Shown one piece after another: positions 5,518 through 38,248 of a stretch of 38,894 nucleotides of DNA (within the stretch, counting starts at the first letter, position 1; every line of letters starts with the position of its first letter). The notes beneath the pieces are model-generated. The model did no database searches, was not told the origin of the DNA, and saw only the letters and a program-made list of their open reading frames with translations. A program made the translations under genes and the position numbers. The DNA comes from Chitinophagaceae bacterium (GTDB lineage Bacteria; Bacteroidota; Bacteroidia; Chitinophagales; Chitinophagaceae), in contig CANGFK010000005.1 in the NCBI GenBank assembly GCA_947452925.1, positions 1 through 38,894 of the forward strand, written 5' to 3'.

Positions 5518-6189
5518 TTATATCATCCAATCTATCACTTCCAAACCCTGTTTTGCCAACAGTGCATTTGTCCTGCTAAAGTGTTTACACCCAAAGAAAC
5601 CATTGTAGGCACTCAATGGCGATGGATGTGCTGCTTTTAGAACATGGTGCTTTGTTTCGTCAATCAGCACTTGCTTCTCTTGTGCAAATTTGCCCCAAAG
5701 TAAAAATATTACGCCCTCTTTTTCAGTAGAAATTTTTTTAATCACTGCATTGGTAAAGTCCATCCAACCAATTTTTGCATGGCTTGCAGGCTCATTTGCC
5801 CTTACAGTAAGCACTGCATTCAACAAAAGAACCCCTTGCTCAGCCCATTTGGTCAGGTTTCCCGAAGTGGGTATGGGCATACCTATATCTGTGTTCAATT
5901 CTTTATAAATGTTTACCAAAGAAGGGGGTGGAGGAACACCGTCGGGTACACTAAAGCTTAATCCCATTGCCTGACCAGGATTATGATATGGATCCTGACC
6001 CAGTATTACTACTTTAACCTTATCAAAGGGTGTTTTGTCGAAGGCATTAAAAATTAATCCTCCAGGTGGATAGATAGTTGTTTTGGTGGCACGTTCTGTT
6101 TTGAGATGTGTAGCAACTTGCAGAAAATAGGGCTTTGCAAACTCATCTTGCAGCACCACCTTCCAGCTTTCTTCTATTTTTACATCCAT
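5518..6189 (-). CDS. ung: Uracil-DNA glycosylase (family 1)
   Basis: A 223-residue base-excision repair enzyme that removes uracil from DNA. The water-activating loop GQDPYH is at residues 64-69 (catalytic Asp66), the uracil-binding strand LLLNAVLTV at 121-129, and the leucine-intercalation loop with catalytic His188 is HPSPLSAYNGFFGCKHF. All diagnostic residues are present and length is normal for family 1 UNG. The ATG at 6189 is the only sensible start. It is probably monocistronic. Confidence 0.97.
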   Translation of the reverse strand: MDVKIEESWKVVLQDEFAKPYFLQVATHLKTERATKTTIYPPGGLIFNAFDKTPFDKVKVVILGQDPYHNPGQAMGLSFSVPDGVPPPPSLVNIYKELNTDIGMPIPTSGNLTKWAEQGVLLLNAVLTVRANEPASHAKIGWMDFTNAVIKKISTEKEGVIFLLWGKFAQEKQVLIDETKHHVLKAAHPSPLSAYNGFFGCKHFSRTNALLAKQGLEVIDWMI

Positions 6190-6293
6190 AAGTAAATTTT
6201 GACAACGAAAATAACAATAATCTGACGCGAGTGAAATTTAGGCTCCTCATCAAGTCTTTTATTAAAGGTTAAACCGTAAAAAAGAGTCATAAA

Positions 6294-6440
6294 GTGAGGC
6301 AATTCTTTCCAAAAGTGAGGCAATTCTTTCCAAAAGTGACACGTTTTATCGATGAAACGTGTCACTTTTGGAAAGAATTGCCCTAATAATGGACTCTTTT
6401 GCCTCGATTTTGGATTGAAATGAGGCGATTTTGGAGGGGA
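6294..6440. repeat. 21-bp-period palindromic array, island 1 (7 units)
   Basis: Units start at 6294, 6315, 6336, 6357, 6378, 6399 and 6420. The first two are identical (GTGAGGCAATTC, then TTTCCAAAA). The rest are degenerate or inverted variants sharing TGAGGC/TGCCTC, ATTTTGGA and GAA at fixed phase. Bases 6319-6346 pair perfectly with 6355-6382 (28 bp, 8-nt loop). An outer pair AAAAGAGTC (6280-6288) / GACTCTTTT (6392-6400) extends the fold. The left arm carries one extra 21-bp unit. Confidence 0.85.
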
Positions 6441-6472
6441 AAAGATAAGCTAATACCTTTAAAACAAGTAAA

Positions 6473-6498
6473 CGTCACTGCGAGGAACGAAGCAGCCT
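6473..6498 (+). repeat. REP-like word CGTCACTGCGAGGAACGAAG
   Basis: The word beginning CGTCACTGCGAGGAACGAAG and continuing CAGCCT resembles the widespread intergenic repeat of the form GTCATTGCGAGGAACGAAGC known to me from many bacterial genomes. Only one half-site is present here. It is probably a solitary degraded copy. Confidence 0.4.
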
Positions 6499-6578
6499 AA
6501 ATCATAAAAAAGTAGATTTATTTTGCTAATGCTATAAAGGTTTGCGAGGGGTGTGGGTGTTGTATGGGGTGATGTTCT

Positions 6579-6586
6579 TATTTTTG
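6579..6586 (+). promoter_or_regulatory. Putative -7 box for the 6612 gene
   Basis: TATTTTTG is an exact match to TAnnTTTG, 25 bp before the ATG at 6612. There is no clear -33 element. Confidence 0.35.
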
Positions 6587-6611
6587 GTAAAGGAAAAAAC
6601 GTTAGCGACAA

Positions 6612-7022
6612 ATGAATTTCATAAATAAAGTCTTGCAATGGTTGAAAGAGCCAGGTAATTTAGGAAAAGCCGTATTTTTAATTGCGGTGTTTCTGATAAT
6701 ATTTGGGATATATGGAAATATTACCCATACTAACAAAATAAGGAAAAGTCATCTTGTTTTGTGTGGAACTGTTCTGGACATGATTTCCCATAAAGGTGGT
6801 GTGGATATTAGATATTATTATTACTATGGAGGGAAGAGATATGAGTATCATGAAGGGGCTCCAGAAAAAACTTATAAAGATTATATAGAAAGAAGGATTA
6901 ATAGTTTACTGATAGTAATTGAAAAAGGTAATCCTAGTAATGATGCAATTTTGAGCAAAGATGAGGATTATGAAAAGTATGCCATCAAGCCAGAAGATAC
7001 TTTGAATGTGAAGTGTCCGTAA
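6612..7022 (+). CDS. Hypothetical single-pass membrane protein
   Basis: A 136-residue protein I do not recognise. Residues 20-38 form one hydrophobic helix (AVFLIAVFLIIFGIYG). The rest is soluble, with a beta-type stretch (LVLCGTVLDMI, VDIRYYYYYGGKRYEYHEG) that recalls DUF3592-like domains, in which a short membrane anchor precedes a small beta domain; this is a weak resemblance. It has no signal peptidase site, so the helix is probably an uncleaved anchor. It is flanked by non-coding DNA on both sides and looks like accessory rather than core content. Confidence 0.7.
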   Translation: MNFINKVLQWLKEPGNLGKAVFLIAVFLIIFGIYGNITHTNKIRKSHLVLCGTVLDMISHKGGVDIRYYYYYGGKRYEYHEGAPEKTYKDYIERRINSLLIVIEKGNPSNDAILSKDEDYEKYAIKPEDTLNVKCP

Positions 7023-8074: not shown

Positions 8075-9631
8075 ATGAGCGCACACTTAAGTGAACAAGA
8101 ACTAGTAAGAAGAGAGAAATTAGCTAAGCTACAAGCGGCAGGAATAGATCCATATCCTGCGGCATTGTACCCGGTTTCGCATTATTCTACTCCCGTAAAA
8201 GAGGCATACAATGAAGCGGTAAAGAAACTGGAGGAAGCAGGCGTGGCAATAGAAAACCCATTGGAAGGCTTTGCCAATGTATGCTTGGCAGGAAGAATAA
8301 TGAGCATTAACGACAAGGGTAAAGTATTTTTTATTAAGATTCAGGATAGCAAAGGCATCATACAACTATACGTAAAACGTGATGACATCTGTCCTGAGGA
8401 AGACAAATCACTCTGGGATAATGTAATCAAGCACGGATTGGACCTTGGTGACTTCATTGGTATTACTGGTTACGTTTTTATTACCAAGACTGGAGAAACG
8501 TCAATTCATACGCAATCTATTACCCTACTAGCAAAGTCGTTGAAGCCTTTGCCAGTGGTGAAAAGAGATGAGGAAGGAAATGTTTTTGATGAAGTAACAG
8601 ACCCTGAATTCCGTTACCGTCAGCGTTATGTAGACTTGGTTATCAATCCTGCCGTAAAAGATACGTTTGTAAAGCGTACGACATTGATGAATACTATCCG
8701 TACATTTTTGAACAATAAAGGGGCTTTGGAAGTGGATACCCCTGTATTGCAAAGTATCCCAGGTGGTGCGGCAGCAAGACCTTTTATTACGCATCACAAT
8801 GCGTTGGATATTCCTTTATATCTGCGTATTGCCAATGAATTGTATTTGAAGAGACTGATTGTAGGAGGATTTGATTGGGTATATGAGTTTAGTCGCAACT
8901 TCCGCAATGAAGGGATGGATAGAACACACAATCCTGAGTTTACGGTGTTGGAATGGTATACTGCGTACAAAGATTATTTCTGGATGATGGAAATAACAGA
9001 GCAATTGTTTGAACAGATTGCTATTGCCTTGCATGGAACAACAGAAGTAACAGTAGGCGATAAAACAATCAGCTTTAAGGCGCCGTTCAAACGTGTGAGT
9101 ATTCATGATGCCATTAAAGAAAATACAGGAATTGACGTAAGCGATAAAGATGAAGCGGGATTGAGAGAAGTATGTAAGCAACTGAATATTGGTGTCCCTA
9201 ATAATATTGGAAAGGGTAAACTGATAGATGAAATATTTGGTGCAACCAGTGAACATACTTACATACAACCCACCTTCATTATTGATTATCCTGTAGAGAT
9301 GAGTCCACTAACCAAGAAGCACCGTAGCAAAGAAGGATTAGTAGAGCGTTTTGAACTGATGGTAAATGGAAAAGAGATAGCGAATGCTTACAGTGAATTG
9401 AATGATCCGTTAGATCAACGTGCACGCTTTGAGGAACAAGTTAAACTAATGGAACGTGGAGATGATGAGGCGATGTTTATAGATAATGATTTCTTGCGTG
9501 CCCTGGAGTATGGTATGCCGCCCACAAGTGGTATTGGTATTGGGATAGACAGACTTTGTATGCTGATGACAAATAGCCCTAGTATTCAGGATGTGTTATT
9601 ATTCCCACAGATGAGACCGGAAAATCTTTAA
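8075..9631 (+). CDS. lysS: Lysyl-tRNA synthetase, class II
   Basis: A 518-residue class II synthetase that charges tRNA-Lys. An N-terminal OB-fold domain (about residues 65-165, with LAGRIMSINDKGKVFF) binds the anticodon. The catalytic core shows motif 2 as FRNEGMDRTHNPEF (about 275-288) and motif 3 as GIGIGIDRLCML (about 486-497). IPGGAAARPF and EIANAYSELNDP are further LysRS signatures. Length is normal for the phylum. It is convergent with rfbA, from which it is separated by a long hairpin. Confidence 0.97.
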   Translation: MSAHLSEQELVRREKLAKLQAAGIDPYPAALYPVSHYSTPVKEAYNEAVKKLEEAGVAIENPLEGFANVCLAGRIMSINDKGKVFFIKIQDSKGIIQLYVKRDDICPEEDKSLWDNVIKHGLDLGDFIGITGYVFITKTGETSIHTQSITLLAKSLKPLPVVKRDEEGNVFDEVTDPEFRYRQRYVDLVINPAVKDTFVKRTTLMNTIRTFLNNKGALEVDTPVLQSIPGGAAARPFITHHNALDIPLYLRIANELYLKRLIVGGFDWVYEFSRNFRNEGMDRTHNPEFTVLEWYTAYKDYFWMMEITEQLFEQIAIALHGTTEVTVGDKTISFKAPFKRVSIHDAIKENTGIDVSDKDEAGLREVCKQLNIGVPNNIGKGKLIDEIFGATSEHTYIQPTFIIDYPVEMSPLTKKHRSKEGLVERFELMVNGKEIANAYSELNDPLDQRARFEEQVKLMERGDDEAMFIDNDFLRALEYGMPPTSGIGIGIDRLCMLMTNSPSIQDVLLFPQMRPENL

Positions 9632-9702
9632 TGATTAGTGATTAACGTTTAGTGATTAATAAGGGTGGCTTGTATTAATCACTAAACGTTAATCACTAAT
9701 CA
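9632..9702. terminator. Bidirectional hairpin between lysS and rfbA (30-bp perfect stem)
   Basis: Bases 9632-9661 are the exact reverse complement of 9673-9702, with an 11-nt loop AGGGTGGCTTG. Each arm contains three copies of the word GTGATTA. It lacks the classical GC-rich core and U-tract, so termination is inferred from position: it fills the gap between convergent lysS and rfbA. Confidence 0.7.
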
Positions 9703-9706
9703 CTAT

Positions 9707-10567
9707 TTATGCTTTCAACTTCCTCAGATATTCGCCATAGCCACTCTTGGCATAACGGTTAGCTAAGTCCATCAATTCGTCTCTATTGATAAAGCCCATG
9801 CGGTAGGCTACCTCTTCTATACAACCAACTTTCTGGCTTTGACGCTTTTCTATCACACGCACAAACTCACTAGCATCAGCCAAAGAATCAAATGTACCCG
9901 TATCCAACCACGCAGTACCACGATTCATTACACCGACATGTAATTTATTATTAGCTAAGTAGACCTTATTTACATCTGTAATCTCATACTCACCACGTGG
10001 CGAAGGGGGAATATTCTTAGCAATCTCTACTACCTCATTATCATAAAAGTACAAGCCAGGAACAGCATAATTAGACTTAGGGGTTGTTGGCTTTTCTTCA
10101 ATAGATAATGCCTTGAAATCTTCATCAAACTCAACCACACCATAACGCTCAGGATCATTTACTTCATAAGCAAAGATGGCAGCCCCCACCACATCATTAA
10201 AAGATTGAACCAATTTACTAAAACCTGCACCGTAAAAGATATTATCACCCAACACAAGCGCAACTTTATCTTTACCAATAAAGTCAGCACCAATTACAAA
10301 AGCTTGTGCCAATCCATTGGGCTTTTCTTGTACTGCATAATTAAAACTGCAACCCAAATCTTTCCCATCACCCAACAAACGTTGAAACTGTGCGGAATCT
10401 TCGGGCGTTGTAATGATGAGTACTTCTTTGATACCCGCAAGCATCAACACAGAGAGGGGATAATAAATCATTGGCTTATCATAGATAGGCATTATTTGTT
10501 TGCTGATTCCCTTAGTGATAGGATACAACCTTGTACCACTTCCTCCTGCTAAAATGATTCCTTTCAT
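9707..10567 (-). CDS. rfbA: Glucose-1-phosphate thymidylyltransferase
   Basis: A 286-residue nucleotidyltransferase that makes dTDP-glucose from glucose-1-phosphate and dTTP, the first step of dTDP-deoxysugar synthesis. The N-terminal signature [17 protein letters not shown] (residues 8-24) and [10 protein letters not shown] (about 108-117) are diagnostic for RmlA, as are [20 protein letters not shown] and GTAWLDTG. It is the last gene of the minus-strand operon, 39 bp after rfbC. Length is typical of RmlA enzymes. Confidence 0.96.
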
Positions 10568-10606
10568 TATTGTGATTATTTGATTAGAATGATTCGATTA
10601 TTAGAA

Positions 10607-11167
10607 TCATTTAAAGTAAACGGTATCTTTTATTTGTTCAAAAGTAGGCTGATTGGCATCTTTCTCAGATAGAATTAGTTCGCTCGCATCAATCTTCCAG
10701 TCGATATTGATAGTTGTATCATTATAAATAAGGCCACCATCACTTGCTTTATTGTAGAAATTATCGCATTTATAAAAGAAAGTTGCTGTTTCACTAAGTA
10801 CTAGAAACCCATGTCCAAAACCACGAGGAATAAAGAACTGTAAATGGTTATCACCTGTTAGTTCTACTGCCACATACTGACCGAATGTTGGCGATTCTTT
10901 ACGCAAATCAACTGCTACATCCAATACTTTTCCTTCTAGTACGCGTACCAATTTAGCTTGGGCATGTTCTCCTTGCTGAAAATGAAGTCCACGCAATACA
11001 CCACGGGTTGATTTTGATTGATTGTCCTGTACAAAATTGATATTCGTTCCTGTTAAGGAATCAAATCTTTGCTTATTAAAGCTCTCAAAGAAATACCCAC
11101 GACTATCTTCAAAAACAGTATCATGGATGATAAAACAACCAGACAATTTAGTTTCTTCTACTCTCAT
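10607..11167 (-). CDS. rfbC: dTDP-4-dehydrorhamnose 3,5-epimerase (RmlC family)
   Basis: A 186-residue cupin epimerase. Seen motifs are GVLRGLHFQ with the catalytic histidine (about residue 62), KLVRVLEGKVLDVAVDLR, FIPRGFGHGFLVLSE and FYKCDNFY with the presumed catalytic tyrosine region. It acts after RfbB on dTDP-4-keto-6-deoxyglucose. Length is normal. It sits between rfbB (49 bp upstream) and rfbA (39 bp downstream). A small hairpin (10588-10595 with 10604-10611) spans its stop codon. Confidence 0.94.
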   Translation of the reverse strand: MRVEETKLSGCFIIHDTVFEDSRGYFFESFNKQRFDSLTGTNINFVQDNQSKSTRGVLRGLHFQQGEHAQAKLVRVLEGKVLDVAVDLRKESPTFGQYVAVELTGDNHLQFFIPRGFGHGFLVLSETATFFYKCDNFYNKASDGGLIYNDTTINIDWKIDASELILSEKDANQPTFEQIKDTVYFK

Positions 11168-11216
11168 TGAGTATGATTAAAATGATTTGAATGATACAAT
11201 GATTAATGATAAACTA

Positions 11217-12269
11217 TTATCTGTCAGAATACATGGCTGTATAATAATTTTGGTAAGCACCACTTGTTACATTGGTCAACCAAGTGGTATTTTCCAGATA
11301 CCAATCAATAGTTTGGCTCAATCCTTCCTCAAAAGTAACAGATGGTTTCCAACCCAACTCTTGATTCAACTTCGTTGCATCAATGGCATAGCGACGATCA
11401 TGCCCTGGACGATCTTTTACATAAGTAATCAATTGCTCACTTTCACCAGCAGTTCTCCCTAGCTTTTCATCCATCAATGTACAAAGAAGCTTCACCAGAT
11501 CAATGTTCTTCCATTCATTAAATCCGCCAATATTATAGGTATCATCCACCTTCCCATTATGGAAGATTACATCAATAGCCGTAGCATGGTCTTTTACAAA
11601 CAACCAATCCCGGGTATATAAACCATCACCATAAACAGGTAATGGTTTTTTTTGTATGATGTTATTAATAAATAAAGGAATCAACTTCTCAGGGAAATGA
11701 AAAGGCCCATAGTTATTAGAACAATTAGAAATGATCGTTCTGATATGATAGGTCTCTGCATAAGCCCTTACAAAATGATCGGAAGCAGCTTTACTAGCAG
11801 AATAAGGAGAATTGGGATGATAAGGTGTTGTCTCGGTAAAGAAACCTTCTGCACCCAAAGCACCATATACTTCATCTGTTGAAATATGATAAAACAAATG
11901 ATTGCTGAAGTCGCCTCCCCATTTTGTCTTGGCAACATTCAATAGATTGACAGTTCCCACTATGTTGGTATACACAAAATCCAACGGACTTTCAATACTT
12001 CTATCTACATGGCTTTCTGCTGCCAGATGAATCACATCCGTAATGTTATGCTTATCAAAAACGCCTTTCAAGGCGGCAGGGTCTAGCAAGTTTACCTTCT
12101 CGAATTGATAGTTAGGCAACTGATCAATATCTTTTAGATTCTCCAGATTACCTGCATAGGTAAGTGCATCTAAGTTAACAATTTTGTAATTAGGATATTT
12201 AGTCACGAATAACCTTACCACATGACTACCTATAAACCCTGCTCCACCTGTAATCAATATATTTTTCAT
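11217..12269 (-). CDS. rfbB: dTDP-glucose 4,6-dehydratase
   Basis: A 350-residue short-chain dehydrogenase of the extended (NAD+-binding epimerase) type. The Rossmann motif is GGAGFIGSH near the N-terminus; the active-site segments are HISTDEVYG and the YSASKAASDH (YxxxK) motif. NNYGPFHFPEKLIPLFI and DWLFVKDHA are specific to RmlB. It converts dTDP-glucose to dTDP-4-keto-6-deoxyglucose. It is co-directional with rfbC and rfbA and 15 bp after the upstream glycosyltransferase. Confidence 0.96.
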   Translation of the reverse strand: MKNILITGGAGFIGSHVVRLFVTKYPNYKIVNLDALTYAGNLENLKDIDQLPNYQFEKVNLLDPAALKGVFDKHNITDVIHLAAESHVDRSIESPLDFVYTNIVGTVNLLNVAKTKWGGDFSNHLFYHISTDEVYGALGAEGFFTETTPYHPNSPYSASKAASDHFVRAYAETYHIRTIISNCSNNYGPFHFPEKLIPLFINNIIQKKPLPVYGDGLYTRDWLFVKDHATAIDVIFHNGKVDDTYNIGGFNEWKNIDLVKLLCTLMDEKLGRTAGESEQLITYVKDRPGHDRRYAIDATKLNQELGWKPSVTFEEGLSQTIDWYLENTTWLTNVTSGAYQNYYTAMYSDR

Positions 12270-12284
12270 ACTATCTTTTTATTT

Positions 12285-13505
12285 CTAGTTACTATTTTTC
12301 TTAAGTTGTTCAGTATACAATTGTTTCAAACTATTTATCTCATGTTGCTTGGAGAACTTACTCCTTGCAAAAACCTTAGCGGCAGTCCCCATTTCCTTTC
12401 TCAATTGCTCATCTTCAATTAATAGGAGTAATTTTTCGGCAAATGTATCCGCATCTGCCGGACTAACAAGAAACCCTGTTTTCCCATCAAGAACTGTATC
12501 TGGCACACCACCAACATTGGTAGCGACAACTGGTTTACCAACATACTGACTCTCTGCAAGTGACAAACCGGTGCCTTCATTATTGGAGGTAAGTACCACA
12601 ATATCCAAAACAGAAAGGGCATCGCCTATATTGGATACCCACGACGTAAAAAGTACCGAAGCATCTGTATTGTGCAACTCATTACTACTCCAAACAATTC
12701 CTTTTTCTGAGAAAAGCTTCTGAATATCAGTTTTCAAATATCCATCCCCAATCACAAAGAAAACAACCTTCTTTGAAGTTTTTTTCAAGACTTTAGCAAC
12801 TACCTCAACAAAAAGAGGAAAATTCTTCACCTTAACGAGTCTTGCAATAATACCTACCGTGATTGTATCTGTACTTAATTGATACTTAGCAGCAAAAGAA
12901 TTACTTTCCTGATTTGCAGAAATCAGAAAAGCATCATCAATTCCCAATTCAATGATGGTCACTTTATTTCGTGGAGCAATTTTGTAATCATCTACCAGGT
13001 CTTTCAACTGACGGCTACTTGTGGCAATGATTACGTCGCTGATATTCGCAAGCATTTTTTCAATAAGAATGATAGCAGTAGAAAGTGTTTTGTTGAAATA
13101 GGAGTGAAAAAAGTGACCGTGGTAAGTATGTACAATTACTGGAATACGGCAAAAAAAAGCAGCTATTCTACCAAGTACACCAGGTACTGCACCATGTGTA
13201 TGAACGATGGAAGGCTTGAAGGATTTTATTATTTTTATGACCGAGAAGAAAACCGAAATATTCAAAAAAGGATTGATAGAACGCCTAAGGCTTGGTATCT
13301 TTTTAAGTTTCAGATTGGCATATTTGCTCAAGAGGTAAGTAGCTTCTACCTCGTGAGATTCTTTTTCGCCATAAATGATTAAGAGTTCGAAATCATTTTG
13401 CAAAAAACCAGCCATCGATATTACATCGATGGCTGGCCCGCCTATTACCAATCTGTTTAAAAACAACAAAACCCTCGGTTTCGCTCCCTCTTTAGTTCCA
13501 GTCAT
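12285..13505 (-). CDS. Glycosyltransferase family 4 (GT-B)
   Basis: A 406-residue GT-B enzyme. The N-terminal acceptor domain has [15 protein letters not shown] and [12 protein letters not shown]. The C-terminal nucleotide-sugar domain has [13 protein letters not shown] and the EX7E element in [20 protein letters not shown], followed by [16 protein letters not shown]. Such retaining transferases add one sugar to a lipid-linked glycan at the cytoplasmic membrane face. It lies inside the nucleotide-sugar operon and overlaps the end of fcl by 14 bp, so a fucose or other deoxyhexose donor is plausible but unproven. Confidence 0.88.
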
Positions 13506-14424
13506 TATCTTTTATATCATCGTAAACAGCTTTGATACCGTTTTCTAATGTAATCGTTGCTTTCCAACCCAAATTTGTCAACTTGGTTACATCCATTAGT
13601 TTTCTAGGTGTCCCATCGGGCTTGCTGGTGTCAAACTTAAGTTCGCCCTCATAGCCTACAACTTGTTTGACTATTTGTGCCAACTCCAATATAGAGACAT
13701 CAGTTCCCCAACCAACATTCACCAATCCTTTTTCATTGTAGGTTTCCATCAAATACAAACAAGCATCTGCCAAGTCATCTACGTGCAAGAATTCACGCTT
13801 TGGTGTACCTGTTCCCCAAAGTTCTACTGCTGGAACATTGTTCTTTTTTGCAGTGATGAATTTGCGAAGTAAGGCTGGTAAAACGTGTGATTTTTCTAAA
13901 TCGTAATTATCATTAGGCCCATATAAATTGGTAGGCATCGCCGAAATGAAGTTGCACCCATATTGTGCCCTATATCCATCGCACAACTCGATGCCTGCAA
14001 TCTTTGCAATGGCATAAGGTTGATTGGTAGGCTCTAAGTAATCACTCAACAGATACTCTTCCTTCAAAGGCTGAGGAGCCATCTTTGGATAGATGCATGA
14101 AGAACCTAGAAACAACAACTTTGTTACTTTATTTACAAAGGCTGCATGAATGATGTTGGACTCAATCATCAGATTTTCATAAATAAACTCAGCTCTATAC
14201 GTGTTGTTTGCAACAATTCCGCCTACTTTGGCAGCAGCAAGAAACACGTAATCTGGCTTTTCAGTTTCAAAAAAGCTATTTACAGCTTGTTGGTTCCGCA
14301 AATCCAGTTCTTTAGAACTGCGTGTAACAATATTTTCGAAGCCATCCTTTCGAAGCCTTCTTTCTATGGCACTGCCCACCATACCACGGTGACCAGCAAT
14401 ATATATTTTAGCTTGCTTCTCCAT
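13492..14424 (-). CDS. fcl: GDP-L-fucose synthase
   Basis: A 310-residue epimerase/reductase that converts GDP-4-keto-6-deoxymannose to GDP-L-fucose. Seen features are [15 protein letters not shown] (Rossmann loop), [20 protein letters not shown], and the catalytic [10 protein letters not shown] (YxxxK). The [21 protein letters not shown] and [17 protein letters not shown] segments are WcaG/Fcl hallmarks. It starts one base into the gmd stop codon (TAATG overlap), so the two are translationally coupled and act in sequence. Confidence 0.97.
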
Positions 14425-15533
14425 TATTCGATCTCATTTTTGTGAGCAAAGCCGTGGTCTCTCAGGTGTTTCTCTTTCTTAAATAAGTCAAGATCACTCG
14501 CCACCATTTCCTTCACCAATGCAGGCAAATCGTAGGTTGGTTTCCAACCCAGTTTCTCATTTGCTTTTGTTGGATCACCAATCAATAAGTCTACTTCTGT
14601 TGGACGATAATAGTGAGGATCTACTTTTACCACAGTCTTTCCTATCAACAAATGATGGTCGCCCTTGATAGCCGTAATATATCCTTCTTCTTGTTCTGCT
14701 TCGCCTCTGAAAGCTATTTCTATCCCTACTTCTGCAAAAGCCATCCGAACAAATTCACGGATTTCGGTAGTGATACCTGTTGCCAATACATAGTCTTCTG
14801 GTGTTTCTTGTTGCAAAATAAGGTACATACCTTCTACGTAATCTTTTGCATGTCCCCAGTCTCTTTTTGAGTTTAGGTTACCCAGATAAACAATATCCTG
14901 CATCCCCAAAGCTATTTTGGCAACAGCACGGGTAATTTTACGTGTAACAAATGTTTCTCCTCTAACCGGACTTTCGTGGTTGAAAAGAATACCATTGCAG
15001 GCGTACATTCCATAAGCCTCCCTATAGTTTACGGTAATCCAATAAGCGTACATTTTTGCTACTGCATAAGGACTTCGCGGATAGAAAGGAGTCGTTTCGC
15101 TTTGTGGAACAGCCTGAACCAATCCATACAATTCAGACGTTGATGCCTGATAGACCTTTGTTTTCTTTACTAAACCCAACAAACGTACTGCTTCCAGGAT
15201 TCTCAGTGTACCAATACCATCTGCATTGGCAGTGTATTCTGGTTCTTCAAAGCTCACATGAACGTGACTCATTGCCGCCAGGTTATAGATTTCATCTGGC
15301 TGAACTTCTTGAATAATACGAATCAGATTGGTGCTGTCCGTCAAATCGCCGTGGTGCAATACCAAATGACGGTCTGGAATGTGTGGATCTTGATAGAAAT
15401 GGTCTATCCTTCCTGTGTTGAAAAGTGAACTACGGCGTTTGATGCCATGAACTTCGTACCCTTTTTTAAGCAGAAGTTCGGCCAAATACGAGCCGTCCTG
15501 CCCAGTGATACCTGTGATAAGTGCTTTTTTCAT
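14424..15533 (-). CDS. gmd: GDP-mannose 4,6-dehydratase
   Basis: A 369-residue dehydratase that makes GDP-4-keto-6-deoxymannose, the substrate of the following fcl gene. It shows [15 protein letters not shown] (NADP binding), [24 protein letters not shown] (YxxxK) and [17 protein letters not shown], all characteristic of Gmd. Length is normal. It is the first gene of the six-gene operon, with a candidate promoter directly upstream. Confidence 0.97.
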
Positions 15534-15559
15534 TGAATGTGTTTATTGATTATTGGCTG

Positions 15560-15591
15560 CAAGGTTAACTTATTTATGGAATTAAATCAAA
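15560..15591 (-). promoter_or_regulatory. gmd: Candidate promoter of the gmd-to-rfbA operon
   Basis: On the minus strand there is a TTTG (15591-15588), a 20-bp spacer and TAACCTTG (15567-15560). This is the Bacteroidota -33/-7 layout with one mismatch in TAnnTTTG. It lies 26 bp before the gmd ATG and is the best-spaced promoter candidate in the window. Confidence 0.5.
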
Positions 15592-15670
15592 TGATAATCA
15601 TTCAGGATAGCTAACTTGATAGAAAAAATGGTTTCTTGGGTTGAAATAGTTTGATTTTTATGAGATGCAA

Positions 15671-15706
15671 AAAAAAATCCGGCAGTTGTTACTGCCGGAT
15701 TTTTTT
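15671..15706. terminator. Rho-independent terminator
   Basis: A 16-bp perfect stem (A-run, then TCCGGCAGT) with TGTT loop and matching ACTGCCGGA plus T-run. It stands 3 bp after the stop of the minus-strand 15710 gene. The A- and T-runs on both sides make it usable in both directions. Confidence 0.92.
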
Positions 15707-15709
15707 AAT

Positions 15710-16363
15710 CTAGTTAATAATTTTAGTCCTAGAAGGACCAGCAGGACCTATTCCTGTTGCATTTTGTGCAAGTGCCAGCACCGTTACTTTGCTGCCAATA
15801 GGTAAAAAAGAAACAGTTTCTTTCGTTTTTCCTCTTGTTACAATAATAGAGTCTGTGGTGGTGCGAACATAGTTTCTACCTATAATCACCTCTCCCACAA
15901 CATCCATAAAAATTATAAAAATATATGAAGTTGCATTTTTCACTTTTGCAACAGACAATTCCAAAAGTCCACCACCCGGCGTATTGGTACCTACGGCACT
16001 TGTAGCACCCGGTTTTGGCTTCTTTACTCTAGCATTAGTGGAGGCATCAAACCCCGACAACAATATTTTTGCTTCATCTCCCTTAGCCGTATAATTCACA
16101 TAGGTGGCTTGTGTGTGCAACAAAGCATCCATTGCTGCTGCGGCTTTTGTATATTCCAATTTCGCGTCTGCACCATTTTTTCTGGCATTATAGGCATCTT
16201 GCAGTCTTTTGGCTGCTGTGGTCAAAACTGTGAGGGGAATGTCAGGCAATGCATAAGTTGCAATGTTTTTCCCCATTACTGTAACAATGTTGGTTGCAAG
16301 TGTAATCATTCCTAATTGCTTGTTCAACGCCCAACTGATAAGTACTACTATTATTTTTGCCAT
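15710..16363 (-). CDS. Conserved Bacteroidota protein of unknown function, fibronectin-III-like C-terminus
   Basis: A 217-residue protein. Residues about 40-100 are an Ala-rich helical part (LTTAAKRLQDAYNARKNGAD, then AAAAMDALLHTQATYVNY), followed by GDEAKILLSGFDAS. A linker rich in Pro and Gly (about 115-135) leads to a beta-rich part ending LALAQNATGIGPAGPS, which has the feel of a fibronectin type III fold. I recall similar proteins, often described only as fibronectin-type-III or hypothetical, across this phylum. There is no signal peptide or known catalytic motif. It has its own terminator. Confidence 0.75.
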   Translation of the reverse strand: MAKIIVVLISWALNKQLGMITLATNIVTVMGKNIATYALPDIPLTVLTTAAKRLQDAYNARKNGADAKLEYTKAAAAMDALLHTQATYVNYTAKGDEAKILLSGFDASTNARVKKPKPGATSAVGTNTPGGGLLELSVAKVKNATSYIFIIFMDVVGEVIIGRNYVRTTTDSIIVTRGKTKETVSFLPIGSKVTVLALAQNATGIGPAGPSRTKIIN

Positions 16364-17018
16364 GATATGAAAATGAAGAGCTTTTTATTCTTCTATATAA
16401 AATTACTCTTTATTCTACTTTTTATCATTTATTAAAAGAACTAATTTCATTTAAAGCATCAATAGTTGTCTTTAATCACCAAAACAACCATCGTTTAACA
16501 CCTTGTTAACTAAAATTAAAAAATATTTATCTTTTTTATAAAATTATTTCAAAAATAAAATAAAATATTTTAAGTAAAAGAGGAAATAAAACAACAAGAA
16601 TGATACAGAATTGCTAATTTATGATTTGTCAGATTCCATTTTTCACCACTCAAAACCTCATTTTTTTAGTAGAAAACAAGTTTTGTTTTAATAAAACAAA
16701 CTCCAATATGTGTTCGACAAACTTTGTTTTAATAAAACAAAGTTTGTGGTGATATAAATAATTTTTGTTTTAATAAAACAAACTCCGTTATGTGTTCAAC
16801 AACTTCTGTTTAGTATTCAACAAGTTTTGTTTTATTAAAACAAACTTTGTCGAGACATAAACAAAGTTTGTTTATGTCTTTTATTTTGTTGGTAAAAAGT
16901 AAAAAATAAAGCTTTATTGTAACATTAAGCATAGACTCCTACTCCATTTATACACCTCAATAACCATTGCTGTTCAAATAACTATATTCGGGGCGAAATA
17001 AAGCAGTGCATCAGTATT
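16364..17018. other. 655-bp AT-rich intergenic region
   Basis: No gene is seen. Bases 16364-16660 are very AT-rich with nothing recognisable. Bases 16678-16884 are the 20/21-bp array described separately. Bases 16885-17018 lead into the flippase gene; a weak -7-like TATATTCG (one mismatch) sits at 16983-16990. Confidence 0.7.
16678..16884. repeat. 20/21-bp-period palindromic array, island 2 (10 units)
   Basis: Units begin at 16678, 16699, 16720, 16740, 16761, 16781, 16802, 16823, 16843 and 16864, alternating mostly 21 and 20 bp. Most begin AASTTTGT or AACTCC and end AACA. The core GTTTTAATAAAAC recurs at 16685, 16726 and 16767 (41-bp steps). Two 40-bp stretches (16681-16720 and 16763-16802) match at 37 positions. 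Hairpins: 16717-16730 with 16734-16747 (14 bp), and the near-palindrome 16854-16878. Confidence 0.85.
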
Positions 17019-18272
17019 ATGAAAAAATTCCTACGGGTATTCTATTCGCAAATTTTCAATTCTTTCTTCCCGATACTTATTGTAGCTATATTGATTAATT
17101 TAAAAAACAAAAGCGATGTTGCCCAGATTTTCCTAATGCTCAACTTTGCCAATGTATATCTGCTGTTTTCAGATTATTCATCCAATATCAACTTCCTGAA
17201 GAATGCAATTGCGGCAGGCGGCATTCACGAAACAACTGCACCCACTATAATTAAGGATATTGAACATTATATAGGCATCAAAACGATAGTTTTCTTTCTG
17301 GGGTTTGTGGCGTGGATTACAATGTGTTGTTATATCCCTTTACTGCACCAGAATATGGTGGCGAGTATATTTTGCTATGCTTTTATTGTTGGGCACAACC
17401 TTAATTTCTATTGGGTGTATATGAGTAGTAGCAAGGAATACCTATTTATCGTCTCCAACTTTTTTGCCCGTCTGTTCCTTTTATTATTGCTGTTGCTTTT
17501 TATCAAACTCCAATTTAGCTTATCTTATCTGATGGCTTTTGTAGGTGTAGGTAATACCTTATTGGCAATCCTGTTTTTTAAAAGCTTTTGCAGACGCTAC
17601 CAACTAAAAATCAACTTTAGTTTAGAAACTATCAAGGAGTCGGTAATAATCATCAAAAAAGACGCTCCGTTGGTAATGAATAGTTTTTTACTGATGAGCC
17701 CAAATACCTGTGCTACCTTCTTTATAGGCTATGTAAAAAATACCGAACTGATATTGGTTTATGGACTGGCAGAAAAAATATTCCTTGCTTTTAGGGCTAT
17801 GTTGGGTGTGTTTGTAAATAGTATCTATCCTGTTTTCTGTTCTAAAGAGGGGGTGAGTAGAAGCAAGGCATTTAAAATATTTGGAGGTTTTTATGCTTGC
17901 ATTGCTCTTGCTTGTGCCAGTATTTATTTCATATCCCCTTTCTTACTAAACTATTTCCACCTACCCGCAACTAGCAACCACACTTTCTATACTTGTCTAT
18001 TCTATTTACTGGCTACCATTATTGCTATCAGTATAAATACACCTTTTTTCATCTGGCTTTTGTTGAAGCATCAATTAAATACAGCTTTTGCAACTGTAGT
18101 TCTTTTAATTACTTCTTTGATAATAGTAGGAGGGTTTATTTACAATACCACCTATAACAATGGGGTAATATCTGTTACACAAAGTTTATTAATTGCAGAA
18201 TCGTTGGTTGTGGTAGCTTATTTTATTATTTACTTTACAATGGATAAAAAAATTACTTTTTTTAAAATTTAA
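17019..18272 (+). CDS. Wzx-like polysaccharide flippase
   Basis: A 417-residue, highly hydrophobic protein with about twelve predicted transmembrane helices and an N-terminal segment (YSQIFNSFFPILIVAIL) of the kind seen in oligosaccharide flippases of the MOP superfamily. The charged/amphipathic N-terminal helix MKKFLRVF and mid-protein IIKKDAPLVMNSFLLMSPN are consistent with Wzx-type lipid-linked glycan transporters. It would move undecaprenyl-linked repeat units across the inner membrane. It is the only + strand gene of the polysaccharide locus and ends 6 bp from the convergent 18279 gene, with no terminator between them. Confidence 0.8.
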   Translation: MKKFLRVFYSQIFNSFFPILIVAILINLKNKSDVAQIFLMLNFANVYLLFSDYSSNINFLKNAIAAGGIHETTAPTIIKDIEHYIGIKTIVFFLGFVAWITMCCYIPLLHQNMVASIFCYAFIVGHNLNFYWVYMSSSKEYLFIVSNFFARLFLLLLLLLFIKLQFSLSYLMAFVGVGNTLLAILFFKSFCRRYQLKINFSLETIKESVIIIKKDAPLVMNSFLLMSPNTCATFFIGYVKNTELILVYGLAEKIFLAFRAMLGVFVNSIYPVFCSKEGVSRSKAFKIFGGFYACIALACASIYFISPFLLNYFHLPATSNHTFYTCLFYLLATIIAISINTPFFIWLLLKHQLNTAFATVVLLITSLIIVGGFIYNTTYNNGVISVTQSLLIAESLVVVAYFIIYFTMDKKITFFKI

Positions 18273-18278
18273 ACTAGT

Positions 18279-19193
18279 CTATCCCCTCGGCAAGACGTCT
18301 ATTTTACCATACTTGCCCTTAAAGCCATCGTTCCATCCTTTAATGATGTAGCGCAGATAGGTCATTCTTTTATCTACAAATAGTAGAAAGATAAATACCC
18401 TGGAAACAGAATAAAAGACCTCACGTACTTTATAACGCCAATCTATATACCCTGTTTTTACCATGAAAACAGAGTTACGGGCTAGATAATACCTGCGTAA
18501 AGGGCTGTGTATTGATATTTCTCTACCAAACATCTTCAACCGATTATCACCAACCTGATGTACCATTTTTGCATTTGGGATGGCAAAGGAGGGTAAGCCA
18601 TGGTGGGTAGCCCTGAAACTCCATTCGATGTCTATATAATCAATAAAAAAGTCCTCACGCATTCCTCCAACCTTTTCGTAAGTCTTGCGAGGAATCAATG
18701 AACCCGATGCAATCAGAAAAGAAGCGGCAATGGGCGTATTATCCCCCGGTATTGGATATTTTTTTATCAGTTTAAAGCCAGAGAAAACAGAAATAGGATA
18801 GTTGTTTTCGGTGCGCGGATCCATATACACTGGGCCTAATGCACCCACAACAGTTCCTTTGCCAGTCATTTCCTCGTAGGCATTACCCAATACAGAAACC
18901 ATATCGGGGCTAGGTTGACTGTCATGGTCAAACAACAAAACGCCCTCTATGCCTGGATCAGCAAACACCGCCTCAATACCTCTGTTCTGGGCATAGCCGA
19001 TGCCCAGATTGTCGTTCAACTCAATGATAGTTACATTAACGTAAGCCGCAGCTAATGTCCTTATAACACTGATATTATTACTGCCATTGTCGGATAATAC
19101 TACGGTCTTCACACTGCCAGTAATACTGCCAATCAATCCCTTTAATACCTCAATTTGTGGGTTGTAGGTTACTATTACTGCTCCTATTAACAT
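18279..19193 (-). CDS. Glycosyltransferase family 2, rhamnosyltransferase-like
   Basis: A 304-residue GT-A enzyme. It begins GAVIVTYNPQIEVL, then has SDNGS (34-38), NLGIGYAQNRGIE (62-74) and the metal-binding LLFDHDSQPS (DHD 89-91). This set is typical of WbbL/RfbF-type dTDP-rhamnosyl or related transferases. The C-terminal SPLRRYYLARNSVFM segment fits the same group. A rhamnose donor would need an rfbD gene elsewhere. It overlaps the upstream polymerase gene by 44 bp. Confidence 0.87.
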   Translation of the reverse strand: MLIGAVIVTYNPQIEVLKGLIGSITGSVKTVVLSDNGSNNISVIRTLAAAYVNVTIIELNDNLGIGYAQNRGIEAVFADPGIEGVLLFDHDSQPSPDMVSVLGNAYEEMTGKGTVVGALGPVYMDPRTENNYPISVFSGFKLIKKYPIPGDNTPIAASFLIASGSLIPRKTYEKVGGMREDFFIDYIDIEWSFRATHHGLPSFAIPNAKMVHQVGDNRLKMFGREISIHSPLRRYYLARNSVFMVKTGYIDWRYKVREVFYSVSRVFIFLLFVDKRMTYLRYIIKGWNDGFKGKYGKIDVLPRG

Positions 19194-20349
19194 GTATATT
19201 CATTTTTGCAACAAGTGCGGTTAAAATAAGGCTGTAAACTATGTTTGAAAGTTGACGGAAGTAATTTTCTTCAAATACTTGCATCAACAAAGGATACATT
19301 AAAACGCTGGTTAGAAACATAAAAGTGAAACTACCTCTTCTTGCCCTGAAATAGAAAAAATGATGAATGAATCCTAGCATTAGTGGCAATAGAAAGATAC
19401 CGGCATAGCCAAAATCCATATAATATGGTTTTATGTAGGAGTAAACATTGGTTGGAAGTGGTGTCATGGTATATTCAGATAGAATTGGAGAGAGGGGATA
19501 AGTAAACCCAAATTTGTTAATCCACACATAAAATACGCGAAAGGAATAGTAACCAAAATATTTTGAGTGAGGAAACTGTGCAATATGTAGTGCTGGCATT
19601 GACGTGATAGTATATACCATCAAAGTTTCGGTAAGCGTCTGCCCATTTGCTTTTGCAGCTCGCAAAATTGTAATTAGGTACATCAATCCCGTTATCAAGG
19701 CAAATGAACCCAATATTTTTTTTGCACTGATTCTTTTCTGCCAAACCAATATGTAAAATAGAGTGATAAAATAGTAAACAAATTGCCCGCGAGAACCCAA
19801 AAGCATGGTATAGTAAATGAACATACCCACCAATACTTTATGCCACATTGTGAACTTTGTTTTGGAAAGGGTGATTAATAGCAGATAAACAGCCATAATC
19901 ATTTGGATGAGACCATAACTACCAAACTTTTTGCCATCATCTTCCACCAATGTATCTCTTACATCTGCAATGGCGAGTATAGAAACATTACCCGTACTCT
20001 TTACATAAACGAGCAATGAAGCCACTTGTAAGAAAAAGAAGACAGGGAAGAGTATTTGAAGATTCCGTTGTGATATATTGATGGATTCTTCTGTGAGCGG
20101 ATTCAGATTCTGGAAAGAAGATTTTCTGGTGAAAAGAAAACAGATAAACCCGCCCAGCGAAAAGCCAACGGACTGATAAAGGATGAACTGGCTTACCTGA
20201 TACAGGTGAATATCATAAGATTTTATATTCAAACACAATAGAGAATAATAAATCAACCATAAAACCGATTGTAGAAAAATGGGGTTCAGGCTGGATTTAT
20301 AAATAATCCTATTAAATATTGCAAGAAAAAGTAGGAAAAAGAAAAGCAT
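19150..20349 (-). CDS. Oligosaccharide repeat-unit polymerase (Wzy-like)
   Basis: A 399-residue integral membrane protein with about ten to eleven hydrophobic helices. A large loop follows about residue 230 (SMPALHIAQFPHSKYFGYYS, then FPLSPILSEY-like segments), as in O-antigen polymerases. LLGSRGQFVYYFITLFYIL resembles the conserved GGRG-type motif of Wzy proteins. It would join lipid-linked repeats on the periplasmic side. It is followed directly by the overlapping GT2 gene. Family assignment rests on topology and a weak motif. Confidence 0.72.
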   Translation of the reverse strand: MLFFFLLFLAIFNRIIYKSSLNPIFLQSVLWLIYYSLLCLNIKSYDIHLYQVSQFILYQSVGFSLGGFICFLFTRKSSFQNLNPLTEESINISQRNLQILFPVFFFLQVASLLVYVKSTGNVSILAIADVRDTLVEDDGKKFGSYGLIQMIMAVYLLLITLSKTKFTMWHKVLVGMFIYYTMLLGSRGQFVYYFITLFYILVWQKRISAKKILGSFALITGLMYLITILRAAKANGQTLTETLMVYTITSMPALHIAQFPHSKYFGYYSFRVFYVWINKFGFTYPLSPILSEYTMTPLPTNVYSYIKPYYMDFGYAGIFLLPLMLGFIHHFFYFRARRGSFTFMFLTSVLMYPLLMQVFEENYFRQLSNIVYSLILTALVAKMNIHVNRSSNSNLQPTN

Positions 20350-27065: not shown

Positions 27066-27333
27066 TATACTTGAATCGTTACTGTTTATCCTCTAATTTT
27101 TAATACAATCCGCAAATAACTGTTAACAGTAAATCTCTAATTGTATACAGTGGAACCTTAATTGTATGCCGCGAAAGAAATACCGCTAACAGTGAGTAAA
27201 TTACGGTTAACAGGTAAGCTTTAATTGTATGAAGTAGAACTTTAATTTCATGCGGTGAAAGAAATACTGCAAGACTGAAGGATGATTTTTAAGCTAAATA
27301 GATAGGGTTATCGCTTTTTTTTAATTCTAAAAA
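27066..27333. other. 268-bp gap within the polysaccharide operon
   Basis: It is the largest non-coding gap between 18.3 and 38.9 kb. It contains repeat island 3 and an A/T-rich stretch next to the WcaF-like stop codon. No exact CAAAnnTA (minus-strand -7) box is visible. Confidence 0.6.
27117..27284. repeat. 21-bp-period array, island 3 (8 units)
   Basis: Units begin at 27117, 27138, 27159, 27180, 27201, 27222, 27243 and 27264. The consensus is roughly TAAYTGTWWRCAGTGRAA. CTGTTAACAG (27120-27129) is a perfect palindrome. A 65-bp block (27122-27186) recurs at 27206-27270 with about 13 differences; its 84-bp offset is exactly four units. Confidence 0.82.
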
Positions 27334-38182: not shown

Positions 38183-38248
38183 AAAGGTGACCACCTTTAT
38201 CGTTTAGGTGGCCACCTTTTTCATTTGGGTGACCACCTTTATTATGTA
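38183..38248. repeat. 21-bp-period palindromic array, island 4 (3 units)
   Basis: GGTGACCACC, GGTGGCCACC and GGTGACCACC begin at 38186, 38207 and 38228, exactly 21 bp apart, each followed by a T-rich spacer (CTTTATCGTTT, CTTTTTCATTT, CTTTATTATG). AGGTGGCCACCT is a perfect 12-bp palindrome; the other two have arms GGTG/CACC with an AC centre. They fill the 145-bp gap between the 38287 and 37155 genes. Confidence 0.85.

Follow-up and report, generated by a model that had tools for sequence, protein, structure and literature searches.

The hairpin-forming repeat beside ung, which we call island 1, is one of the genome-wide short arrays with an exact 21-nt spacing, mostly without a common sequence, that we describe here in a Chitinophagaceae bacterium. 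Sampled members of the genus commonly have this 21-nt array pattern, which is seldom seen in those related genera that were sampled. From our analysis we consider it reasonably probable that island 1 belongs to a fast-turning, mostly non-coding minisatellite-like class, in which duplication proceeds in a 21-nt register and which has partially spread in a MITE-like manner. The window, that is the whole stretch of DNA analysed, has a length of 38,894 nt and represents contig C5 of an assembly of 3.37 Mb in 416 contigs (88% complete). Below, "own" refers to this source assembly, G001 and similar labels to other genomes, C to contigs and L to sequence stretches.

The hairpin beside ung

The ung gene occupies positions 5518-6189 of the minus strand (Pfam UDG match), and its best named matches are Chitinophagaceae MAGs, with Sediminibacterium species among the close ones. 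The gap of 6190-6611 has ung on one side and a plus-strand ORF (6612-7022, no Pfam match) on the other, the two genes being divergent. As ung is read from the minus strand, the gap with island 1 is its 5' (upstream) side, and not the downstream one as was assumed in the preliminary description. A polysaccharide gene cluster (nucleotidyl transferase, sugar epimerases and dehydratases, glycosyltransferases) is found at 9707-20349 of the same window. Island 1 comprises the following features:

6280-6288, plus strand: outer element AAAAGAGTC, present too in the left arm of the related island G010:C56
6291-6311 and 6312-6332, plus strand: two identical 21-nt units AAAGTGAGGCAATTCTTTCCA, from the lag-21 self-comparison
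6319-6346, plus strand: left arm of a perfect 28-bp stem
6333-6368, no strand assigned: dyad centre, consisting of a half unit AAAGTGACACG, the loop TATCGATG (6347-6354) and the mirror of the half unit
6355-6382, plus strand: right arm of the perfect 28-bp stem
6369-6431, minus strand: three inverted degenerate 21-nt units (6369-6389, 6390-6410, 6411-6431) with 16, 14 and 13 of 21 matches to the unit
6392-6400, plus strand: outer element GACTCTTTT, present too in the right arms of the islands on own C28 and on G010:C56

The identical units, the 28-bp stem and the outer pair flanking it had all been noticed before and are confirmed here. Lag-21 identity is 100% over 6291-6339 (0.65 over 63 nt and 1.00 over 28 nt), and the stem contains no mismatch around its 8-nt loop. 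The notion of seven words at exact phase stands only if a mirror register is allowed: the right-arm units start at 6369, 6390 and 6411, and not at 6354, 6375 and 6396, so that a plain phase fails, and the left slot at 6333 is made of a half unit and half of the dyad centre.

Island 1's repeat and stem are not produced by chance. Against the observed lag-21 identity of 1.00 over 28 nt, 1000 mononucleotide shuffles of the gap gave at most 0.68, and the longest perfect stems in five shuffles of the whole window were 9-10 bp. Longer perfect stems do exist elsewhere in the window, at 2132-2200 (32 bp) and 9632-9702 (30 bp); it is thus not the stem length alone that is special, but the 21-nt register. 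Both of these other hairpins lie between the ends of convergent ORF pairs and exceed the usual terminator length.

Folding on both strands, which had been proposed as a check, gives a very stable RNA structure (z = -12.0 for the plus and -11.7 for the minus strand). It would be consistent with a functional RNA hairpin or a bidirectional transcription terminator, a reading that we nevertheless regard as quite improbable. There are no T-tract terminator matches in 6150-6650 (0.3 expected) and no Rfam matches at gathering score in the window; the 24 sub-threshold ones, mostly to miRNA hairpin families (E down to 2e-7), reach at most half of the gathering score and are a consequence of the perfect stem. 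The comparison of ung gaps among relatives, also proposed earlier, was possible for 10 of 12 same-genus genomes (G005 has no ung match, and in G001 the contig ends 12 nt past the ung start), and the island 1 word was in none of these 10 readable gaps. In G010 a different array is seen by eye in the ung gap, and there is a lag-41 match on that contig.

Arrays with a 21-nt step inside and outside the genus

In 430 kb of the own assembly, scanned with a 63-nt window at 67% self-identity or more, 21 matches were found at lag 21 and 21 at lag 42, against 14 at all other lags of 10-60 taken together (four at lag 41, three at lag 14). One block shuffle per sequence of the same sample gave no lag matches. 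The self-identity spectrum of non-coding DNA in own and G006 has peaks at 21, 42, 63, 84, 105 and 126 nt, with lags 3, 4 and 7 raised too. Fewer 21-nt multiples are visible in G003 and G011, G003 having additional peaks at 41, 82 and 123, and the outgroups G016 and G021 have no strong peak at multiples of 21 nt. With the threshold lowered to 62% identity, the four genus genomes sampled first gave 54 matches at lag 21, 61 at lag 42 and 44 at lag 63, compared with 0 to 3 at the control lags 17-20 and 22-25 and 10 at lag 41.

Counted as fixed-threshold matches in sampled contigs rather than in whole genomes, the merged islands number 86 in 1.162 Mb of the genus (61 stretches, 13 genomes) and 2 in 0.785 Mb of other genera (samples of 42 and 20 kb, 22 genera). 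Seven of the 86 are situated in ORFs longer than 150 aa. A further 1.29 Mb of named loci (75 loci, genus unverified) contained four islands, of which three resemble heptamer-type runs. Runs of this kind occur in the genus as well (L132 18424-18606, L346 0-151, L362 8430-8792) and are included in the 86. In the 430 kb sampled from the own genome, 34 islands are located outside long ORFs. This density, 79 per Mb, would correspond to roughly 265 in the whole genome, so that their number can be estimated at a couple of hundred. The samples from three genus members, G008 (24 kb), G009 (10 kb) and G010 (40 kb), gave no lag-21 match, G010 having one at 22/44, and they count as a point against the minisatellite-like class; outside its 40-kb sample G010 does carry 21-nt arrays.

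At the threshold at which island 1 is detected the window holds one further island, the last of the three below; a weak low-complexity match at 16504-16589 was excluded.

16675-16880, no strand assigned: second lattice island, weaker, with AACAAACTTTGTTTTAATAAA words and inverted repeats, seen at the 0.57 threshold only
27114-27267, no strand assigned: third lattice island, weaker, with an 84-nt period (4 x 21), seen at the 0.57 threshold only
38185-38242, no strand assigned: fourth lattice island, AGGTGACCACCTTTATCATTT, 2.8 units, with a similar word on own contig C4 (L119 8739)

Inverted repeats of about 20 nt at regular distances are reminiscent of the ends of IS21- or REP-type elements, and from this resemblance one might take the arrays for terminal repeats of the IS21 family or for REP elements moved by RAYT transposases. 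The gene content makes it very improbable. IstB_IS21 matches at E<=1e-40 are present in 22 of the 117 family genomes, while the best one in the 13 genus genomes is partial (E = 5.7e-11). No Y1_Tnp match at E<=1e-8 is present in the own assembly, at its 88% completeness, or in G010; at this cutoff the genus has 0-5 per genome (17 in 11 genomes) and other genera 0-2 (7 in 9). At 30 IstB loci of other genera the unit motif gave single matches in seven and no arrays, and IS21 terminal repeats were rejected as a candidate.

Words, symmetry and gene context of the islands

Inside islands the identity at lag 21 is 0.583, with about 0.30 at lags 20 and 22 and 0.25-0.30 at all other lags from 3 to 30. 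Lags 10-11 have no excess, and DNA curvature at 10.5 bp was rejected as an explanation. According to simple longest-ORF calls, 48 of 84 islands lie between ORFs, 33 mostly within an ORF and three at contig edges. Coding heptad repeats (21 nt being seven codons) are therefore not a general explanation. For the counts on words and symmetry the 10 islands in ORFs longer than 150 aa were dropped, leaving 74; one of those dropped (L128 3184) is an array in which a reading frame simply happens to remain open.

Most islands have words of their own. At E<1e-6, 13 word groups can be formed, which together take up 29 of the 74 islands; the other 45 stand alone. The similarity that does exist is above expectation, with 34 pairs at E<1e-3 against 7-21 in 10 column-permuted controls, and 16 pairs at E<1e-6 against 0-4. 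A dyad significant on the 21-nt lattice (p<0.05, column-permutation null) is present in 44 of 74 islands, about 60%, and on the 42-nt lattice in 52; islands without a dyad are direct repeats only. The 30 islands that lack a significant 21-nt-lattice dyad speak further against an RNA hairpin as the general function.

The 48 intergenic islands are distributed over 32 co-directional, 11 divergent and five convergent gaps, the background being 216, 86 and 45 among the 347 gaps with a length of 100 nt or more. The two distributions are similar, which indicates no clear preference for promoters or terminators, and the lack of an excess in convergent gaps (5/48 vs 45/347) is not what bidirectional terminators would be expected to give.

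A viral origin was also considered and rejected, since each of 51 viral loci had a single motif match at chance level. One of them, the viral contig L293, has a weak lattice at 108-227, with 21/42/63-nt periodicity (0.70). Another word had no match among viral sequences. The exact two-unit pattern of island 1 gave no matches in the genome contigs and viral contigs searched. Plasmid records likewise yielded no match.

Relatives of island 1 and dispersal of arrays

Words related to that of island 1 occur at three other places of the own genome, namely on C28 (88% over 104 nt), C403 (78-88%) and C39 (71-74%), and outside it on G010:C56, G010:C195, G001:C313 and G002:C50, in three of the other 12 genomes of the genus. 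Judged from their homologous flanks, C28 and G010:C56 are counterparts, and so are C39 and G010:C195. In these sister islands, judged by eye, the dyad centre is the best conserved part and the outer units are variable. The left arm, again by eye, is longer than the right one in C28, C403 and G010:C56 as well, so the asymmetry of island 1 needs no special late event, such as the duplication of one unit after the palindrome had formed to which it was initially attributed. The exact duplicate itself does look recent, as had been supposed, because neighbouring units in C28 and C403 differ.

Recurrence of similar words at different loci raises the question of transposition. Each word family could represent a non-autonomous MITE-type transposon with a minisatellite interior, like BrickBuilt, and island 1 could have arrived by transposition. 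Some families agree with it. On own C23 (L279, around 13047-13068) about 35-nt terminal inverted repeats surround, by eye, an array with a 42-nt step; this element end is found in 2 of 13 genomes, twice in own and three times in G006, and one of these five places, G006:C122, has no array. In L129 (19163-19593) and in L338 and L339 a leader of more than 100 nt is common to own, G010 and G006; the array word after it is the same in own and G010 and a different one in G006:C57, where the leader is near the start of an opposite-strand ORF. Own L129 and G010:C235 have a leader-array-tail element in common.

As a general identity for the class, a MITE was rejected, since it fits some families only. 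End-to-end inverted repeats exceed the null maximum of 12.5 in seven of 69 islands, the match in some of the seven looking like array units, and 62 have none above this level. The 9-bp inverted outer pair of island 1, AAAAGAGTC/GACTCTTTT, scores 9.0, where mismatched pairs give a median of 7, a 90% level of 9 and the maximum of 12.5. The sister islands of island 1 have the centre and not the ends in common, and several arrays look expanded in place. A target-site duplication would have to be sought at a clean empty site, and the relatives appear too far diverged to provide one. We consider it unlikely that the islands are in general MITE-type elements, and return to the minisatellite-like class, within which MITE-like spread would be one component.

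Turnover at orthologous sites

The orthologous sites were chosen for alignability and mostly judged by eye, so the proportions given here are not rates, and gain is not separated from loss. Arrays differ between species in presence and in unit number. At site A (L124 3334), by eye, own has about five units of 42 nt and G006 about 1.5; G010 is without any, and G001 has another sequence there. Site C (L130 7522) has the same word with five units of 42 nt in own vs seven in G006, and at L117 2075 an array in own stands against one unit in G010. The array of site D (L130 16244) is absent in G006 and G010, with no recognisable copy in G002 and G003, and L129 4860 corresponds to a 77-nt gap in G010. 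At site E (L131 9374; 9393-9621) own has an array where G006, G001 and G003 (L268, L269, L270) have a conserved hairpin, GGTCTG...CAGACC, which by eye is terminator-like; this one site favours the RNA or terminator reading. Site B (L124 10368), whose flanks are on different G006 contigs, and the stretches L271, L275, L340, L342 and L343 are outside the comparison.

The word may also be kept or replaced. The same word in register is found at site F (L131 16504) in G006, with equal unit number, G002 and G003 having no array there, and at C28 and C39 in G010. Different words stand at one orthologous site at L126 4312 (vs G006), L125 8135 (vs G003) and L129 19271 (vs G006:C48); for L117 19225 (vs G010) and L123 12947 (vs G006) the words are related or uncertain.

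Identity among units points to homogenisation on the own side, clear in C39, partial in C28 and absent at site F. For C39 vs G010:C195 (four units) the value is 0.85 among own units and 0.73 among those of G010, with 0.75 for orthologous pairs of units and 0.74 for non-orthologous ones; for C28 vs G010:C56 (six units) 0.71, 0.59, 0.64 and 0.54; for site F (seven units) 0.71 within own, 0.64 within G006, 0.77 and 0.66. The idea of a changing array instead of a fixed RNA, put forward in the preliminary description, hence receives support for much of the class, from gain or loss, unit-number change and homogenisation at other islands; the absence of the island 1 word from the readable ung gaps and the related words elsewhere in the own genome agree with it. 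It is not universal, as site F keeps its unit number in two species. This stability, together with the one-sidedness of homogenisation (both within-G010 values are below the orthologous ones), argues also against the minisatellite-like class itself.

The pattern of conserved columns invites another explanation, in which DNA-binding proteins would occupy the arrays at fixed spacing, with a dimer at every second turn of the helix. Indeed, 21 bp are two helical turns and many words are dyadic. Between C39 and G010:C195 the constant columns are 0.89-1.00 identical and the variable ones 0.33-0.38, with no length change over the four units, and at site F constant columns are 0.90-0.97 vs 0.54-0.55. 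The pair C28/G010:C56 does not fit: with constant columns defined from own they are 0.62 identical and the variable ones 0.75 (0.75 vs 0.47 when defined from G010). Hundreds of arrays with unrelated words would, moreover, require as many specificities, the promoter side is not preferred, and some orthologous sites have entirely different words. Because of the two-turn spacing and the conserved constant columns in two of three pairs we keep protein-site arrays in consideration, as a rather improbable general explanation.

Gap openings amount to 3 per 167 substitutions in four island pairs, among them the L129 element, for which the two sequences come from different loci, and to 37 per 531 in other intergenic DNA; the pooled island figure omits a fifth pair, L117 19225 (2 gaps per 106 substitutions), and includes 2 openings of the C28 pair, none of which is inside its longer alignment. 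Scarcer indels within arrays could mean selection on phase, and they too argue against the minisatellite-like class.

A possible course of events

For the minisatellite-like class we propose that arrays grow, shrink and homogenise in whole 21-nt, often 42-nt, steps, probably via replication slippage or recombination between units, whichever direction the change may take. Inverted copies, which probably come from template switching at hairpins, would give the dyad of many arrays. With whole-step change and inverted copying the words would be altered and the 21-nt register would persist. Some arrays would also have reached new loci as copies, in part at least carried within MITE-like elements that have leaders, tails or terminal inverted repeats. 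In island 1 (6291-6431) the most recent step that can be seen would be the duplication or homogenisation of one 21-nt unit. No host function would be needed. A minisatellite class with an inherited register is the simplest account of presence and absence, number changes, recurring words and the lack of gene context.

Plain slippage, however, does not predict one single exact step for unrelated words. Either all arrays derive from ancient ones that already had the 21-nt step, or the length of 21 nt is measured out by some agent. In the latter case a genus-specific molecular ruler, an enzyme or a nucleoprotein with a step of two helical turns, may build, re-word and maintain hundreds of intergenic arrays independently of sequence, and orthologous sites would keep the array while its word is replaced. 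We see it as a minor but real possibility.

Significance and relation to known repeats

Tandem repeats in bacteria usually have many unit lengths or belong to one repeat family. That many arrays of unrelated sequence keep to a single, exact step of 21 nt suggests one shared generator or one shared constraint. In the open-access literature searched we found no publication on such a 21-nt class. Since the arrays are concentrated in one genus and nearly missing from other sampled genera, the responsible gene or process could be sought by comparison. Such arrays may break MAG assemblies (G006:C74 and G006:C88 both terminate in one 21-nt array element), and they might be of use as strain markers.

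REP and BIME sequences are dispersed intergenic palindromic repeats associated with RAYT. The arrays described here are likewise dispersed and intergenic, and many are palindromic, but their units are members of a lattice and not single palindromes, and the own genome is without Y1_Tnp at the cutoff given above. Bacterial VNTR or minisatellite loci change unit number and homogenise in tandem arrays, and the present ones behave in the same way; unlike minisatellites generally, they are predominantly of a single unit length in the genome sampled.

Heptamer direct repeats, TAACTGA among them, are described from Beggiatoaceae, Cyanobacteria and some Bacteroidetes (PMC4679880). The arrays resemble them as abundant intergenic short tandem repeats of patchy taxonomic distribution, and differ in having 21 nt and many words instead of 7 nt and one main word. 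Within the islands there is only a slight rise at lags 7 and 14 (0.296 and 0.295), and seven of the 86 islands are heptamer-like.

Another of the closest known parallels comes from Porphyromonas gingivalis, which belongs to Bacteroidota. BrickBuilt (PMC4596501) is a MITE/minisatellite of one family with a 23-nt unit and 19 copies in one strain. Both are intergenic, consist of spacerless tandem units of about 20 nt and occur in multiple copies, and at least one family here has a leader and a tail. Unlike BrickBuilt, island 1 has a unit of 21 nt instead of 23 nt, and its class comprises many arrays of unrelated words with an exact 21-nt step, most of them without detected terminal inverted repeats and many of them dyadic.
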